Shown: positions 7,301-15,233 of the stretch, in pieces | How the letters are laid out: every line of letters starts with the position of its first letter | Numbering within the stretch: the first letter of the stretch is position 1 | Source: Sulfuricella sp. | GTDB taxonomy: Bacteria > Pseudomonadota > Gammaproteobacteria > Burkholderiales > Sulfuricellaceae | DNA: 15,576 bases | Direction: 5' to 3' | Assembly: GCA_030696235.1 (NCBI GenBank) | Contig: JAUYSN010000421.1 | Span: 1-15,576 of the forward strand | Position numbers and translations under genes: made by a program | Notes under the pieces: generated by a model | Told to the model about the DNA's origin: nothing | Databases searched by the model: none | The model's input: only the letters and a program-made list of their open reading frames with translations

Positions 7301-7855
7301 ATGAGCAAACTTTACGTCTCGACCTACCTGGGCAACCGGTTCTATCCGCTGGAGCCGCGCATCGACGATGTGGATATCGAGGACATCGCGCACGGCCTGG
7401 CCTACCAATGTCGCTTCAACGGCCAGACCAACGCCTTCTACTCGGTCGCCCAGCATAGCCTGATCGTCGCCTCGCTGGTGCCGGAAGAGCTGCGCTTCGC
7501 CGCCTTGCTCCACGATGCCGCCGAAGCCTACCTCGGGGACATGGTCAAACCGCTCAAGGTGCTGCTGCCCGGCTTTTCGGAAATCGAGGACAACGTCAGC
7601 CGCATCATCGGCGAGCGCTTCGGGGTCGACCTGAACCACAATCCCATCGTCAAGCAAGCCGACCTGATCGCGCTGGCCACGGAGAAGCGCGACCTGATGC
7701 CGTATTCCGTTGAAGAATGGACCTCTCTGATCGGGGTGGAGCCGATGGGGGAGACGATACTGCCCATGCCGCCGGATGTGGCCAAGCGGGAATTCATGCG
7801 GGAGTTTGAGCGGATGCACAATTCAAGGGCAACTGATTTTAGAGGCGCCCTTTAG
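7301..7855 (+). CDS. HD-domain phosphohydrolase (COG1896/YfbR-like)
   Basis: A 184-residue protein of the HD superfamily. Candidate metal ligands are His52 (SVAQHSLIVA), the His71-Asp72 pair in ALLHDAAEAYLGD, and a later Asp in VKQADLIALATEKRDL. The opening YVSTYLGNRFYPLEPR and IEDIAHGLAYQCRFNGQ are typical of a subgroup found in both chromosomes and phages. YfbR-type members are 5'-deoxynucleotidases, but the substrate here is not established. GGAAAG precedes the ATG. It stands alone, with a 249-bp gap from HU upstream in which, apart from the HU promoter, nothing gene-like is seen. Confidence 0.85.
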   Translation: MSKLYVSTYLGNRFYPLEPRIDDVDIEDIAHGLAYQCRFNGQTNAFYSVAQHSLIVASLVPEELRFAALLHDAAEAYLGDMVKPLKVLLPGFSEIEDNVSRIIGERFGVDLNHNPIVKQADLIALATEKRDLMPYSVEEWTSLIGVEPMGETILPMPPDVAKREFMREFERMHNSRATDFRGAL

Positions 7856-8518: not shown

Positions 8519-9139
8519 TTACAGACCGAGTCTGCATTTGGCTCGTTCAACGCAGCTATTCATCTGCGCTTTCGGCGCCTTCTGCAGCGTGCGCAAAAAC
8601 TCGTGCGGAACGGCGCTCAGGCCATATTGCTGCCTGATATCCGACACCATCTTTACCCACAGATGGGCGGTCATTTCTGCGTCAGCCAGGGCGCGGTGAT
8701 GGCGGATCGCCGAGGGAAGCCCCAGATGCCTGACCAGCGTTCCCAGCTTGTGATCAGGCGCAGCCGGATAAATCCGGCGTGCCAGCAACATTGAACAGGC
8801 AAACTCCTGCCGCCGCCGCTGGTTGATCCTCAACCACTCGGCATCCAGAAACCGGCTGTCGAACGAAGCATTGTGCGCCACCAGAGGCACGTCGCCGACA
8901 AACTCCGCCAGCGCACTCATCACCTCCGCTGCCGGCGGTGCCTTGCGGATCATGGCGTTGGATATGCCGGTCAGCGCCTCGATAAATGCAGGGATGCGCG
9001 CACCCGCATTCATCAGGCTTTGGTAGCGGTCGACGATCTTGCCGTCATCCACGATAACCACCGCCACCTCGGTCGCCCGGTCCCCCATGGCTGGCGATAG
9101 CCCGGTTGTTTCGAAGTCGATGACCGCTACGGTCTCCAT
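8519..9139 (-). CDS. DEDDh 3'-5' exonuclease (DnaQ/PolC-epsilon-like)
   Basis: A 206-residue exonuclease of the DnaQ-like superfamily. ExoI is VIDFETTG (Asp8, Glu10), ExoII is VAHNASFDSRFL, and ExoIII is HRALADAEMTAHLW with the His and Asp of the DEDDh type. It should remove nucleotides from 3' ends using two metal ions. It lacks a UvrC/GIY-YIG or polymerase domain, so it is a stand-alone exonuclease and not clearly the replicative epsilon subunit. The start is placed at the ATG at 9139, preceded by AGGA at five bases; a TTG seven codons upstream is less likely. The last 40 residues are basic and cysteine-bearing. Confidence 0.88.
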   Translation of the reverse strand: METVAVIDFETTGLSPAMGDRATEVAVVIVDDGKIVDRYQSLMNAGARIPAFIEALTGISNAMIRKAPPAAEVMSALAEFVGDVPLVAHNASFDSRFLDAEWLRINQRRRQEFACSMLLARRIYPAAPDHKLGTLVRHLGLPSAIRHHRALADAEMTAHLWVKMVSDIRQQYGLSAVPHEFLRTLQKAPKAQMNSCVERAKCRLGL

Positions 9140-9354
9140 GCATATCCTATTGATGGGCAATAATTTCAGACGGAATCATACCTTGAGCCTTCTGGCTGGG
9201 ATAGTGACATCAGGACGAATGGATTTAATCAGCGCCAACCTGGTGAGAATTTCTATAATGAAGCTGATGCAGAACGATCTCAGCCCTGACAGGAGACCAA
9301 AGCCATGCCGAAATTGCATCTGGTACCCGCAGAAACTCATGCTTTTCATTAAAA

Positions 9355-10226: not shown

Positions 10227-11201
10227 CTAGCTGTCGCCGTATATCCCCGAGGTCTGGCCGACCAGGTCGATGATCCGGCGGCGCAGCAAATCGGGCCCCA
10301 GCACTTCCACCTCCGGGCCGAATTTCAGGATATCCATCACCAGTTCCCGGTCGTCGCTGTAGGGCACGTTCAGGGTGTAGCGCCCCTCGTCGTCGAAGTG
10401 CGACTTCTGCTCCGGGTGCCAGGCTTCGCGGCTCACCCAGCGCGCACGCTGCGGCGTGAAACGCAGTTCCGCCCACTTCACTTCCTTGCCCGAGAAAATC
10501 CCGTAGCCGGTGCCGAGGATTTCATCGAGTTCCTGTTCGCTGACATCCAGCGCCTGCTCGCTGATCAGCCGCACCCGGCGGATAGCGTCCAGCGAGAAGC
10601 TGCGAATGCCGTTGCGCATGTGGCACCAGGCATCCAGATACCAGTTGTCCCGGTAGTGTGTCAGGCGCTGGGGAGACAGGACCCGGCCCTGCGTTTCGTC
10701 CCGGCTGCGGGTGTAGTAGCTGATTTCCAGTTTCTTGCGCTGGAGGACGGCGGTCGCGATCGGGGAGAAGTGTTCGGGCTCGTAGGAGCGGGCGTTGACG
10801 CGCAGGATGCGGATGCGCTTCTCGACCGAATCCATCGGGATATCGGCCGATTCCAGCAGCAGTTTCAGCCGGGTGAGCAGCGGGTCGACATGGGGGGAAA
10901 GCAGGCCTGGCCCCAGGTTCTGCAGCAGGTGCTGCATGGTGAGCAGGGCGTGGATTTCCGAGGCGTTGAACCACAGGCCGGGCAGCTCGTACTTGTTCCC
11001 GGCAATCGGCTTGTCGAAGTGGTATCCCCAAGCTTCCCGGTCCCAGACGATAGGCGCGTTCAGCCTGTCCCGCAGGTATTCGATATCGCGCATGAACGTG
11101 GCGCGGGAGATTTCCAGTTCGCCAAGAAAAACCTCGATGGGAACAATTTTGCGTTCATGCAGCAGCTGGTCGATGCGATAGAAGCGTTCCGTGCGGTCCA
11201 T
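10227..11201 (-). CDS. WYL-domain transcriptional regulator
   Basis: A 324-residue regulator. The N-terminal helix-turn-helix is FYRIDQLLHERKIVPIEVFLGELEISRATFMRDIEYL (7-43). The central WYL domain contains RVLSPQRLTHYRDNWYLDAWCHMRNGIRSFSLDAI, with the family's Trp-Tyr-Leu in place. A C-terminal WCX-type region includes LNVPYSDDRELVMDILKFGPEVEVLGPDLLRRRI. WYL domains bind nucleic-acid ligands, and members such as CapW and BrxR control anti-phage systems; the target here is not shown. AGGGA precedes the ATG. A perfect inverted repeat overlapping its promoter suggests autorepression. Divergent from two small unknown genes. Confidence 0.9.
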   Translation of the reverse strand: MDRTERFYRIDQLLHERKIVPIEVFLGELEISRATFMRDIEYLRDRLNAPIVWDREAWGYHFDKPIAGNKYELPGLWFNASEIHALLTMQHLLQNLGPGLLSPHVDPLLTRLKLLLESADIPMDSVEKRIRILRVNARSYEPEHFSPIATAVLQRKKLEISYYTRSRDETQGRVLSPQRLTHYRDNWYLDAWCHMRNGIRSFSLDAIRRVRLISEQALDVSEQELDEILGTGYGIFSGKEVKWAELRFTPQRARWVSREAWHPEQKSHFDDEGRYTLNVPYSDDRELVMDILKFGPEVEVLGPDLLRRRIIDLVGQTSGIYGDS

Positions 11202-11224
11202 GAAAATTCCCTGATGGGATTCTG

Positions 11225-11245
11225 GTGTCTCATCCTGTGAGACAC
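11225..11245. promoter_or_regulatory. probable WYL-regulator operator
   Basis: GTGTCTCA (11225-11232), 5 bases, TGAGACAC (11238-11245) form a perfect inverted repeat, 23 bases before the WYL gene start. The minus-strand -10 TATAGT (11246-11251) abuts it, so a bound dimer would block transcription. The divergent small genes may share this control region. Confidence 0.75.
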
Positions 11246-11322
11246 ACTATACCCCACAATGCATGACAGAACGAAGGCACCTATCTGAAAAACGGCATGA
11301 CTTGACTTGAAAGGGCATAGAG

Positions 11323-11508
11323 ATGGAAAACCATAACGGACTGAAACTGATGATGGCGATACGCCGTATCTGCAACCGCGCGGCAGCCGAGGGAAAAACC
11401 ATCGTGCGGCCGGCCACGCTGCGCCAGATGGACAGGCAGATCAGCCGGATGCGCAAAACTCTCAAGGCCGGGCCATCCGAAAAAGCGGTTAGCGCAAGCC
11501 TCTTTTGA
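11323..11508 (+). CDS. 61-aa basic hypothetical protein
   Basis: A small, strongly basic protein that I do not recognise. The sequence GLKLMMAIRRICNRAAAEGK is probably helical and amphipathic, followed by TIVRPATLRQMDRQISRMRK and a short tail. It has no signal peptide or membrane helix. AAGGG precedes the ATG. It is 45 bases upstream of the 93-aa DUF4258-like gene on the same strand, so the two are probably one operon, and it diverges from the WYL regulator. Coding status rests on the ribosome site and operon layout, as the frame is short. Confidence 0.55.
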   Translation: MENHNGLKLMMAIRRICNRAAAEGKTIVRPATLRQMDRQISRMRKTLKAGPSEKAVSASLF

Positions 11509-11553
11509 CCACAGCCGGAATCGGACGAATCGCTTTAAGCTAAGGAGAAAAAC

Positions 11554-11835
11554 ATGAAACTTGGAATCGTCAGCAGCCACGCCAGAATGAGCATGAAGCG
11601 CCGCGGCATCCCACCCCAGGCCCTGGAAACGCTGTTCGCATACGGCCGGGTCGCACATGCGCCTCACGGGAGCCGGGTAGTGTATTTCAGCAGCGTGGGA
11701 AAGGCCGTGCTGTCAAAATCGCTGCCAGCCAATCAGATCGACCGCTGGGCGGATATGTATGCCGTCCTTGACTCGCAAAACGAGGTGATCACGGTGGGTT
11801 ACCGCACCAACCGGATTCGGCGTGCCAAACACTGA
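11554..11835 (+). CDS. 93-aa DUF4258-like protein
   Basis: The layout SSHARMSMKRRGIPPQALETLFAYG, then HGSRVVYFS, then NEVITVGYRTNRIRR resembles the DUF4258 pattern: a His-Ala-Arg-x-R-x-x-x-RGI helix, short strands and a C-terminal VITV-R strand. This small fold, seen near toxin-antitoxin and defence genes, is not assigned a biochemical activity here. A strong AAGGAG lies five bases before the ATG. It follows the 61-aa gene in the same direction and is followed by a 15-bp perfect hairpin. The pair has the size and order of a two-gene toxin-antitoxin module, but no toxin activity can be read from the sequence. Confidence 0.7.
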   Translation: MKLGIVSSHARMSMKRRGIPPQALETLFAYGRVAHAPHGSRVVYFSSVGKAVLSKSLPANQIDRWADMYAVLDSQNEVITVGYRTNRIRRAKH

Positions 11836-11864
11836 ATCAGATATTGCCGATGAAGCGATTAACC

Positions 11865-11899
11865 GCCCTATTCGCTTCATAATTTGAAGCGAATAGGGC
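11865..11899. repeat. perfect 15-bp inverted repeat (hairpin)
   Basis: GCCCTATTCGCTTCA (11865-11879) and TGAAGCGAATAGGGC (11885-11899) with a 5-base loop TAATT, 29 bases after the 93-aa gene. A third related TGAAGCGA lies at 11851-11858. No T tract follows. It could end the two-gene transcript, or be a protein site or element end at the edge of the fic remnant. Confidence 0.85.
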
Positions 11900-12035: not shown

Positions 12036-12830
12036 ATGCGCTTGCAACAAACTGACACCATCCCTTCGCAGCCGGGGCATTATGCGAAATCCTGCATCTG
12101 TTCGCCGTTTCCCTTATCGAGAGCACTCGCGATCCTCGCGTGCTGCTGGGCATGCTCCGGTCACTGCGCGCCGGATTTTTTCAAACTCAAGCCGCCCGTT
12201 GCGGCTTCTGTCGCCTTGCACAGGATGGAAATGATCCCCTTGCCGCAACCCCGTACCGATGGCCCCGTCTCGGTTGAGCGTGCGCTGAAGCAGCGCCGCT
12301 CGGTGCGGGATTTTTCCGCCGCCGCCCTCTCTCTGGACGAGATCGGGCAACTCCTCTGGTCTGCCCAAGGTGTCACCCACCCGGAAGGGCTCCGCACCGC
12401 TCCTTCGGCCGGCGCACTATATCCGCTTGAGCTGACCGTGGTCGTCGGCAACGTCACCGGGCTGAGCGCGGGAGTGTATCGCTACGATCCTGCCGGGCAC
12501 GTTCTTACGCCGCTCGCGGCGGGTGATCGGCGTGCCGACCTGGCGCGCGCAGCCTTTGGCCAGTCGTGGATGCAGAAGGCGCCGGCGCTGATCGCCTTCG
12601 GCGCAGTCGAAGCGCGGATCACACGGAAATACGGCCAGCGGGGAAACCTCTATGTCCACATCGAGGTCGGCCATGCAGCGCAAAACGTGTTCCTGCAGGC
12701 CGAGGCTCTTGGCTTGGGGGCGGCGGTAGTGGGGGCGTTCGACGACGCAGCCGTTGCAGCCGTCCTGCAAATGCCCAAGGAGGAAAAGCCGCTGTATCTG
12801 ATGCCGGTGGGCAAGCCCTATTCCCCTTGA
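12036..12830 (+). CDS. SagB/ThcOx-type nitroreductase-family protein with N-terminal leader
   Basis: A 264-residue protein. Residues from about 66 form a nitroreductase fold: RTDGPVSVERALKQRRSVRD carries the Arg-Arg-Ser FMN contact, LSLDEIGQLLWSAQGVTH and RTAPSAGALYPLE are the SagB/ThcOx signature, YVHIEVGHAAQNVFLQAEALGLGAAVVGAF is the second FMN segment, and MPVGKPYS closes it. Residues 29-44 (SRALAILACCWACSGH) are hydrophobic and cysteine-rich, suggesting export or a lipoprotein anchor. SagB enzymes oxidise azolines in peptide maturation, but no precursor or cyclodehydratase gene is nearby, so this is probably a stand-alone flavoenzyme of unknown substrate. The start at 12036 has a poor ribosome site; a start nearer residue 65 would remove the leader. 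Confidence 0.82.
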   Translation: MRLQQTDTIPSQPGHYAKSCICSPFPLSRALAILACCWACSGHCAPDFFKLKPPVAASVALHRMEMIPLPQPRTDGPVSVERALKQRRSVRDFSAAALSLDEIGQLLWSAQGVTHPEGLRTAPSAGALYPLELTVVVGNVTGLSAGVYRYDPAGHVLTPLAAGDRRADLARAAFGQSWMQKAPALIAFGAVEARITRKYGQRGNLYVHIEVGHAAQNVFLQAEALGLGAAVVGAFDDAAVAAVLQMPKEEKPLYLMPVGKPYSP

Positions 12831-13465: not shown

Positions 13466-13741
13466 TCAATAAACTGCGTCATGGTCGCCGATGTTGACCG
13501 GGATGATTTCTTCATCAGATATCAGCAATTCCAGCGTAATGCGGTAGGAAAGATTGATCGAAACCGAATGCAGCCCCTCAAGCCGCCCGCTCAGCGGGTG
13601 CAGGCGCAATCCGGGGTGGAAGGGATTGGCCTCAAGCAGTTGCAGGGTTTTTAGGTATTGCTGTTTCAATTCGGGGTGCCGTTTGAGAAAGCGGCCTGCT
13701 CGCCGGGTGTATTGCTCGGTAAAGACCAGCGTATAGCTCAT
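13466..13741 (-). CDS. RelE/ParE-superfamily toxin
   Basis: A 91-residue toxin-like protein: a helical start FTEQYTRRAGRFLKRHPEL, a second helix LKTLQLLEANPFHPGL, then strands RLHPLSGRLEGLHSVSINLSYRITLEL and the end EEIIPVNIGDHDAVY, the standard RelE/ParE/YafQ finish. RelE-type members cut mRNA on the ribosome and ParE types poison gyrase; which applies is not decided by sequence alone, although the YafQ-like layout favours mRNA cleavage. The ATG overlaps the antitoxin stop (ATGA), so translation is coupled to the antitoxin gene upstream. No frameshift is seen. Confidence 0.88.
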   Translation of the reverse strand: MSYTLVFTEQYTRRAGRFLKRHPELKQQYLKTLQLLEANPFHPGLRLHPLSGRLEGLHSVSINLSYRITLELLISDEEIIPVNIGDHDAVY

Positions 13742-13995
13742 TCAGCGGCATCCAGCCGCGCCAGATGGGCTTCCGCCGACTCCTTGACGAAACGCCCGGC
13801 AGCCAAATCCGCCCGCGTCTCGGCCAGCGCGGCATCCAGTTCGCATTCCCGCAGATAATGGTAATGGGCAATATCCATCACCACGAAACGATCCTTGCCG
13901 CGCACCGAAATAATCGCTTCAGGTTGATGTGCAAGTTCAGCTTCGATGGCGGAAATCCCTTTGGTCTTGAGATCGTTGGCGCTGATGCTCGACAT
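13738..13995 (-). CDS. Phd/YefM-type antitoxin
   Basis: An 85-residue antitoxin. The N-terminal DNA-binding part reads SSISANDLKTKGISAIEAEL, then EAIISVRGKDRFVVMDIAHYHYLRE as in Phd/YefM proteins. The C-terminal LDAALAETRADLAAGRFVKESAEAHLARL is the segment expected to wrap the toxin. It neutralises the downstream RelE-like toxin and, with it, represses the operon. The ribosome site AGGAG lies 6 bases before the ATG, and a clear promoter lies upstream. Antitoxin-first order with a 4-base overlap is standard. Confidence 0.88.
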   Translation of the reverse strand: MSSISANDLKTKGISAIEAELAHQPEAIISVRGKDRFVVMDIAHYHYLRECELDAALAETRADLAAGRFVKESAEAHLARLDAAE

Positions 13996-14522: not shown

Positions 14523-14957
14523 TCAAATGTTTAGCGTCTTGATGAATTGATCAGCGGTAATGATGGGGCAGGAAAACTGGCCAGCAAGGCACAGCAAATC
14601 CTGGTCGCTACTCACGAGATAGTCAGCCTTGCCCACAACGGCGAGCTGCAGAAACGGCAGATCGAAGGGGTCGCGGCACTCCGGTGTCTCGGGCGGCGGG
14701 TTGGGTATGCGCACGGTAGTGCACCAGGGCAGGTAGTCGGCCAGGAGTTCCTGTTGTTCGTCCGGCGTGAGTTTGAACTTGGGGTAGGCGAGTACGCGGA
14801 TGAGTTCCGCTGCTGTGACTCTGGATACCAAGGGCTGGCAATGTTCGCCTTGCCAGGCATGGCGCAATAGGGCCAGCTGCCCCTGGGCAAATACCAGCGC
14901 GGACAGCACCAAGTTGGTGTCGATCACCACGCAGGGTGGGCGCGGGGAACGGGTCAT
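14523..14957 (-). CDS. PIN-domain toxin (COG1569 type)
   Basis: A 144-residue PIN protein. VVIDTNLVLSAL gives the first acidic residue (Asp13) and the Asn/Ser pair, SRVTAAELIRVL the second (Glu), and RDPFDLPFLQLAVVGKADYLVSSDQDLL the remaining acids. PIN toxins are Mg-dependent ribonucleases cutting tRNA, rRNA or mRNA; the target here is unknown. All expected catalytic acids are present, so it appears intact. The ATG overlaps the antitoxin stop as ATGA. The C-terminal PIITADQFIKTL is usual for this PIN group. Confidence 0.9.
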   Translation of the reverse strand: MTRSPRPPCVVIDTNLVLSALVFAQGQLALLRHAWQGEHCQPLVSRVTAAELIRVLAYPKFKLTPDEQQELLADYLPWCTTVRIPNPPPETPECRDPFDLPFLQLAVVGKADYLVSSDQDLLCLAGQFSCPIITADQFIKTLNI

Positions 14958-15220
14958 TTCTTGCGGCGGTTCTTCGCGGGGCTGGCGGGTGCTTGACTAG
15001 CCGTTTGCCGGGCCCATGCAACCGCGTCGGCAATGTCCTGCTCCTGCAAGTCCAGTTCGGCCAGCTTGGCGCGCACGGCATCGCTGCGCTGGATGCGAAC
15101 CGGGGTCAGCACGATCTGTCCGTTGCGGGCCTCCACGTCGAAATACTCCGCAGGGCCAACGGCAGCGGTGATGCTCTTGGGTAGGGTGAGCTGGTTTTTA
15201 GAAGTCATTTTGGCAAGCAT
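14954..15220 (-). CDS. SpoVT/AbrB-type antitoxin
   Basis: An 88-residue antitoxin partner of the PIN toxin. The N-terminal AbrB swapped-hairpin DNA-binding part reads AKMTSKNQLTLPKSITAAVGPAEYFDVEARNGQIVLTPV. The C-terminal half, AVRAKLAELDLQEQDIADAVAWAR, is helical, and a Lys/Arg-rich tail follows. The start is the ATG at 15220 with GGAGG five bases before it; a TTG four codons upstream is less likely. It should bind the palindrome just upstream and keep the operon repressed with the toxin. Its stop overlaps the toxin start. Confidence 0.9.
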   Translation of the reverse strand: MLAKMTSKNQLTLPKSITAAVGPAEYFDVEARNGQIVLTPVRIQRSDAVRAKLAELDLQEQDIADAVAWARQTASQAPASPAKNRRKK

Positions 15221-15233
15221 GATAGCCTCCAAT

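Follow-up and report, generated by a model that had tools for sequence, protein, structure and literature searches.

In a 15,576-nucleotide stretch of DNA from Sulfuricella sp. (GenBank assembly GCA_030696235.1, contig JAUYSN010000421.1; hereafter the window), a gene for a WYL-domain transcription regulator on the reverse strand faces, across a shared promoter region, two consecutive forward-strand genes for proteins of 61 and 93 amino acids (aa). Our analyses suggest, with a probability of roughly two in three, that this regulator is an activator of the DriD/PafBC type which controls a wide set of DNA repair and anti-phage defence genes, and that the 61/93-aa operon is its conserved local target. 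The genome of origin amounts to 1.97 Mb in 501 contigs, of which the window is contig C479. Below, G numbers denote genomes, L numbers regions or loci of relatives and C numbers contigs of the Sulfuricella genome; coordinates in the window are given in Table 1.

The domain order of the WYL protein, helix-turn-helix (HTH), WYL and WCX, is that of the DriD/PafBC type; its WYL and WCX domains exceed their Pfam cut-offs, and the HTH_11 match scored 16.2 bits, under the cut-off of 25. Profile comparison placed PafBC first (9e-24), DriD entries next (about 5e-10) and BrxR after them (4e-8). Residues S31, A33 and R37 of the HTH and R172, R183, R199 and F201 of the putative ssDNA-binding WYL groove were invariant across 23 aligned orthologs, while the second PafC arginine is a serine here. 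Matches at E<=1e-20 were found in 20 of the 22 genomes of the family; across the order, 106 of 300 genomes had orthologs at E<=1e-40. The Sulfuricella genome itself has one match only to the window protein.

An initial annotation of this DNA had proposed an operator in the promoter region shared by the WYL gene and the small genes, and this prediction is borne out among relatives. The window operator, GTCTCATCCTGTGAGAC, is a perfect 6-N5-6 dyad of 17 letters, and its arms, GTCTCA..TGAGAC, carry a matching change in both halves relative to the consensus GGCTCAYNNNRTGAGCC (layout GGCTCA-Y-NNN-R-TGAGCC). At the WYL promoter in 16 regions of relatives, GGCTCA-N5-TGAGCC was exact in 10 and had one mismatch in 5; only in L066 was the operator missing. 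Within 300 base pairs (bp) upstream of WYL genes, the motif occurred with at most two mismatches in 26 of 42 loci (3 of 45 having been left out as partial WYL genes) and with at most three in 28, compared to 2 for the reversed sequence.

Across the 300 genomes of the order, GGCTCAYNNNRTGAGCC was present in 74 and its reversed control in 18. A WYL ortholog (E<=1e-40) was found in 61 of the 74 operator genomes compared to 45 of the 226 others (counts 61/13/45/181; Fisher p=3.6e-22), and the association held when our own family was removed (p=8e-19). For the reversed control pattern, 9 of 18 genomes had a WYL ortholog and the association was not significant (p=0.2). Permuting the WYL labels within families gave a mean of 49.8 and reached 61 in 0 of 20000 trials, so shared family alone fails to explain the co-occurrence. 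A loose pattern of the operator yielded 70 sites, 18 of them a single repeat of G005, against 18 for the reversed control. When a -10 box was added to the pattern, matches were found in 11 of 12 chosen operator-rich genomes with none for the reversed control, and a class-wide search with this composite pattern found 12 of 229 genomes, our own included, so the operator signal is mainly one of this order. Outside the family we read 60 regions among the matches listed, with 12 further sites left out; the loose-pattern sites left unread were the 18 G005 repeats and those in regions already covered.

The genes behind the operator are frequently ones of repair or defence. From 85 extended-motif sites, 26 of which lie inside a called gene, we chose 50 target genes by hand and non-blind, and 26 of the 50 encode repair or anti-phage proteins by Pfam: Cas3 (7), N6/N4 methylases (3), HsdM (2), BrxC/D (1), a HIRAN protein (1) whose next gene resembles cas3 by eye, RmuC (2), SbcD (1), RecC (2), SNF2 helicases (3), MrfA/HRQ1-type helicases (3) and ribonucleotide reductase (1). 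PAPS-reductase-like and TY-Chap targets were left out of this tally, as was a Bro-N protein that we take to resemble DinD, and another target is a WYL gene. A rough control was drawn from 73 genes flanking these operators on the opposite side; they share neighbourhoods with the targets and gave at most 12 repair or defence matches, with 25 of 90 families listed, so that this tally may hold more than 12 repair genes. In the Sulfuricella genome, an exact operator lies 53 bp before cas3 on contig C464, separate from the WYL contig; other exact sites in the family precede cas3, genes of the phage-defence system BREX (BrxC/D) and a type III-like methylase gene. With so many repair and defence genes of other loci placed behind the operator, the WYL regulator is probably not private to its neighbours. 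The link to stress or phage suggested at the outset gains support.

The geometry of these promoters is restricted. A -10 hexamer followed the operator by +10 bp in 29 and by +11 bp in 19 promoters, together 48 of 63, with 0 to 5 at each other position; the 63 were oriented by target gene, and 26 of them, taken from WYL/61/93/HD regions of close relatives, are non-independent. Among 38 sites with chosen targets the -10 box was on the target side in 25 and on the other side in 3, and among 60 non-chosen sites it was found on either side in 24. A -35 match of at least 4/6 at 16-18 bp spacing was found in none of the 48 promoters (mean 1.7; shuffled 2.3). These promoters thus lack a -35 box and have the operator in its place, which points to an activator, as in DriD, whose operator covers the -35 place with a constant spacing to the -10 box (PMC12340889).

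It could also be argued that the WYL protein is a BrxR/CapW-type repressor, holding these same promoters shut and released by a signal of phage or damage. Like the protein studied here, BrxR/CapW combines HTH and WYL domains with inverted-repeat operators of 5-bp spacer and a link to defence genes (PMC9122601), BrxR being a repressor on such repeats; a protein over the -35 place would equally block polymerase, and defence genes are frequent among the targets. However, all 48 promoters lack a -35 box at or next to the operator, as suits an activator, PafBC and DriD precede BrxR in the profile comparison, and repair genes are also among the targets. Further, BrxR represses its neighbouring island (PMC9122601), whereas most operators found here have no detected WYL gene nearby, and the cas3 operator of the Sulfuricella genome lies on another contig than the sole WYL match. 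We therefore consider repression unlikely.

Within the genus (Sulfuricella-like genomes), the WYL gene faces the 61-aa and then the 93-aa gene, contiguous and in the same divergent order, in 10 of 12 genomes; the two without the full unit, G008 and G013, have a completeness of 74% and 79%. In four genomes of a sister genus of the same family, g3 (G014, G016, G017 and G019), the 93-aa homolog instead follows the WYL gene on the same strand and is itself followed by a gene that clusters with the DnaQ-like exonuclease gene of the window, the HD-like hydrolase gene (see Table 1) lies divergent from WYL behind the operator, and the 61-aa gene is found ~2 kb off on the opposite strand, unlinked from the 93-aa gene. 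Each of these genomes has separate operator copies (0-1 mismatch) before the 61-aa gene, before the 93-aa gene and before the WYL/HD pair. In G020 the WYL gene is followed by a 93-aa gene with an operator copy before it, while in G015 and G021 (g3) and G001 (g2), where WYL faces the 61-aa gene, we did not find a 93-aa homolog. That each small gene keeps the operator even when the two are apart argues, more strongly than any other local evidence, for both being targets of the WYL regulator.

These arrangements also bear on the proposal, made in the initial annotation, that the small genes are a self-contained toxin-antitoxin system. The locus would then be a local type II pair with a 61-aa antitoxin, a 93-aa RelE-fold toxin and the WYL protein as its private switch, as gene size and order would allow (an antitoxin-first order is described for DUF4258 toxins; PMC11980606), along with the contiguity of the pair in the genus and the alignment of the 93-aa model to RelE/ParE/YafQ/BrnT toxins. 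The occurrence of the three genes together elsewhere was indeed confirmed, but the self-contained pair was not: the genes are unlinked behind separate operators in four g3 genomes, each is found without the other (three genomes with a 61-aa gene and no 93-aa homolog found; the 93-aa family behind the operator in the family of G187, where no 61-aa homolog was found), and the operator is common to repair and defence genes. This makes a private pair improbable, by a hair more so than repression. Rather, given the spread of the operator, its co-occurrence with WYL, the classes of its targets and the promoter geometry, the 61/93-aa unit is better read as a target of a global DNA-damage and defence activator. 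It is very unlikely that several WYL paralogs travelling with defence or mobile genes share the motif and that the window protein controls its neighbours only, for while at least 10 of the 60 regions read outside the family contain a WYL gene and the motif occurs on repeated elements (G005 has 18 copies), no WYL gene was detected nearby in the remaining regions, the Sulfuricella genome has an operator before cas3 on a contig other than that of its one WYL match, and the HTH residues are invariant.

A 61-aa frame without conservation would have refuted the initial annotation, but the frame proved conserved. A sequence search found 46 homologs and a profile search 111, and comparison with three close relatives gave differences at codon positions 1/2/3 of 1/5/12, 3/4/11 and 3/4/10; because homologs exist and the differences fall mostly at position 3, we conclude that it is a real gene. 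Homologs were found in 9 of the 300 genomes of the order, all in our own family. A terminal motif Q-x-x-[L/M]-F, the type found in sliding-clamp-binding proteins (PMC11139829), is present at either end of the conserved core in 31 of the 111 family members (shuffles, mean 0.37). The window member differs in lacking the glutamine and has a partial motif only, a C-terminal SASLF; AMSLF in the delta subunit is a natural clamp motif that also has no glutamine (PMC11139829). The C-terminal blocks of the 61-aa model have a mean model confidence (pLDDT) of 54 and 51, and a Foldseek search with the model had no match at E<=0.001; its leading rows were for the most part two-helix hairpins, ribosomal uL29 among them. 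The G021 homolog (L062 5870-6229, P0066) has an in-frame insert of ~45 residues that by eye resembles a translated intergenic repeat.

The 93-aa gene, preceded as first described by a ribosome-binding-site-like AAGGAG, differs from its homolog in L067 by 2/3/19 at codon positions 1/2/3, again mostly at position 3, so that this gene too is conserved at protein level. Its structural model is toxin-like and aligns with modest scores to RelE/ParE/YafQ/BrnT folds. The proposed match to DUF4258 is weak by Pfam (14.2 bits, gathering cut-off 25; best among relatives scanned 24.3 and 23.9). The model thus aligns to the folds of DUF4258 and RelE-BrnT (BECR-fold) toxins (PMC11980606), and the protein differs from them in this sub-cut-off score and in its predicted regulation with repair and defence genes. 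H9, Y69, T80 and R87 are invariant among 17 homologs. In G187, from another family of bacteria, the operator-plus-(-10) pattern is followed after 32 bp by a gene of this protein family (L233), whose product is 28% identical to that of the window, and for the distant paralogs L016-L018 no operator (<=3 mismatches) was found in 400 bases upstream.

Under the activator reading, we hypothesize that the WYL protein binds the dyad GGCTCAYNNNRTGAGCC (here GTCTCATCCTGTGAGAC) in place of a -35 box and would recruit RNA polymerase to promoters that hold a -10 box only. By analogy with DriD and PafBC, the signal is most likely single-stranded DNA (ssDNA), arising from damage or phage replication and bound in the WYL groove. 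The 61/93-aa operon would be the conserved local target, and the others would vary by genome, with predicted repair targets of recC, sbcD, rmuC, SNF2 and MrfA-type helicases and ribonucleotide reductase, and predicted anti-phage targets of cas3, type I and III-like restriction-modification and BREX. The 61-aa protein would probably bind the DNA sliding clamp by a short terminal motif. For the 93-aa protein, the probable role is that of an RNase-like effector of RelE/BrnT fold, which would slow growth during DNA repair or phage attack.

DriD of Caulobacter crescentus is likewise an HTH-WYL-WCX protein, an activator with a divergent target operon adjoining it, and has repair genes in its regulon (recJ, dnaG, bapE and didA; PMC12340889) as are predicted here from the operator. 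Its operator, ATACGAC-N7-GTCGTAT, is unlike that of the window, the targets found here include cas3, restriction-modification, BREX, recC, sbcD and rmuC, and ssDNA sensing is a prediction in the present case. PafBC of mycobacteria, a WYL damage activator and the closest solved relative by profile, is a heterodimer with sigma adaptation (PMC11804915) and differs in the second conserved ssDNA-groove arginine, replaced by serine here. A bolder extension, to which we give somewhat less than even odds, is that betaproteobacteria of this order hold a second, LexA-independent damage regulon in which a WYL activator, acting through GGCTCAYNNNRTGAGCC, jointly induces repair, Cas3, restriction-modification and BREX, in which some repeated and probably mobile elements carry the operator, and in which the 61-aa clamp ligand and the 93-aa RelE-fold effector halt or redirect replication and translation. 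Among the matches listed in a search of open-licence literature by title or abstract, neither the operator nor a betaproteobacterial WYL damage regulon was described. Phage-defence regulators are mostly known system by system and WYL damage activators from few species, so a single operator that links repair to unrelated defence systems throughout an order would account for the arming of defence under DNA attack, and it would serve as a DNA signature for new damage and defence genes such as those of the 61-aa and 93-aa proteins.

Several further observations concern the operator. Repeated elements that carry it were seen in G005 (18 copies of GGCTCACTACGTGAGCC) and, as repeated composite sites, in G217, G158 and G048, some at contig ends; in L129 (2530) it lies 50 bp before a gene resembling an IS1595-type transposase by eye. 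The damage regulator may serve mobile elements to time their transposition. In three genomes of another family (L184 1542-2492, L185 1446-2423 and L186 1498-2475), a 317-326-aa protein adjoining WYL lies behind an exact operator and starts with MMEQLSFF or MMEQLSFL, resembling a clamp motif at the extreme N-terminus; a Pfam scan of the L184 protein gave no match. Genomes of two families encode apparently secreted proteins of 104-109 aa with repeated N-S-P-Y-N-like units (L154 2584-2895 and L231 1576-1902), with the operator or the operator-plus-(-10) pattern 43-45 bp ahead of the gene. In G015 (L060 984-3412), umuC-like and umuD-like genes were read by eye about 3-5 kb from the WYL/61-aa region.

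Table 1. Features of the window (strand +, - or. for none)
Feature	Positions	Strand	Basis or remark
HD-domain-like hydrolase	7301..7855	+	YfbR-like 19.7 bits, HD 16.4 bits, both under cut-off
DnaQ-like exonuclease	8519..9160	-	Pfam RNase_T 104.7 bits; neighbour of WYL also in sister genus (clustering of regions)
WYL-WCX transcription regulator, 324 aa	10227..11201	-	Pfam WYL 75.4 bits, WCX 58.3 bits, both over cut-off
Operator dyad GTCTCATCCTGTGAGAC, consensus GGCTCAYNNNRTGAGCC	11227..11243	.	conserved at this promoter among relatives
Candidate -10 box CACAAT of 61/93-aa operon, no -35 box	11255..11260	+	11 bp past operator
61-aa protein, basic helical hairpin	11323..11508	+	111 homologs by profile; model pLDDT 83.8
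Ribosome-binding-site-like AAGGAG ahead of 93-aa gene	11542..11547	+	sequence
93-aa protein, DUF4258-like	11554..11835	+	19 homologs; model pLDDT 82.3
Hairpin, 15 bp	11865..11899	.	folding z -5.7

Past the small genes, the 15-bp hairpin noted initially does exist, occurring once in the Sulfuricella genome, but in 8 relatives the 150 bases that follow the 93-aa gene hold no perfect hairpin of more than 6 bp (loop 3-10). The hairpin is therefore not conserved and probably stands outside the module, as a possible local terminator or relic. An operator-like site at 9173-9189, near the DnaQ-like exonuclease gene, has 3 mismatches and is too degenerate to claim. Scans of the window found no Rfam match at the gathering threshold and no tRNA. 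Directly past the module lies a SagB/nitroreductase-family gene (12036-12830; TIGR03605, 128 bits); comparison with 17 regions of relatives found no homolog of it. In the surroundings, the Fic remnants of the initial annotation were read by eye. The description of this DNA as rich in toxin-antitoxin genes stands for two pairs by family matches, though several of these matches are under cut-off: a YafQ-like and Phd-like pair at 13466-13995 (both under), and a PIN protein (over) with an AbrB-like protein (under) at 14523-15232.
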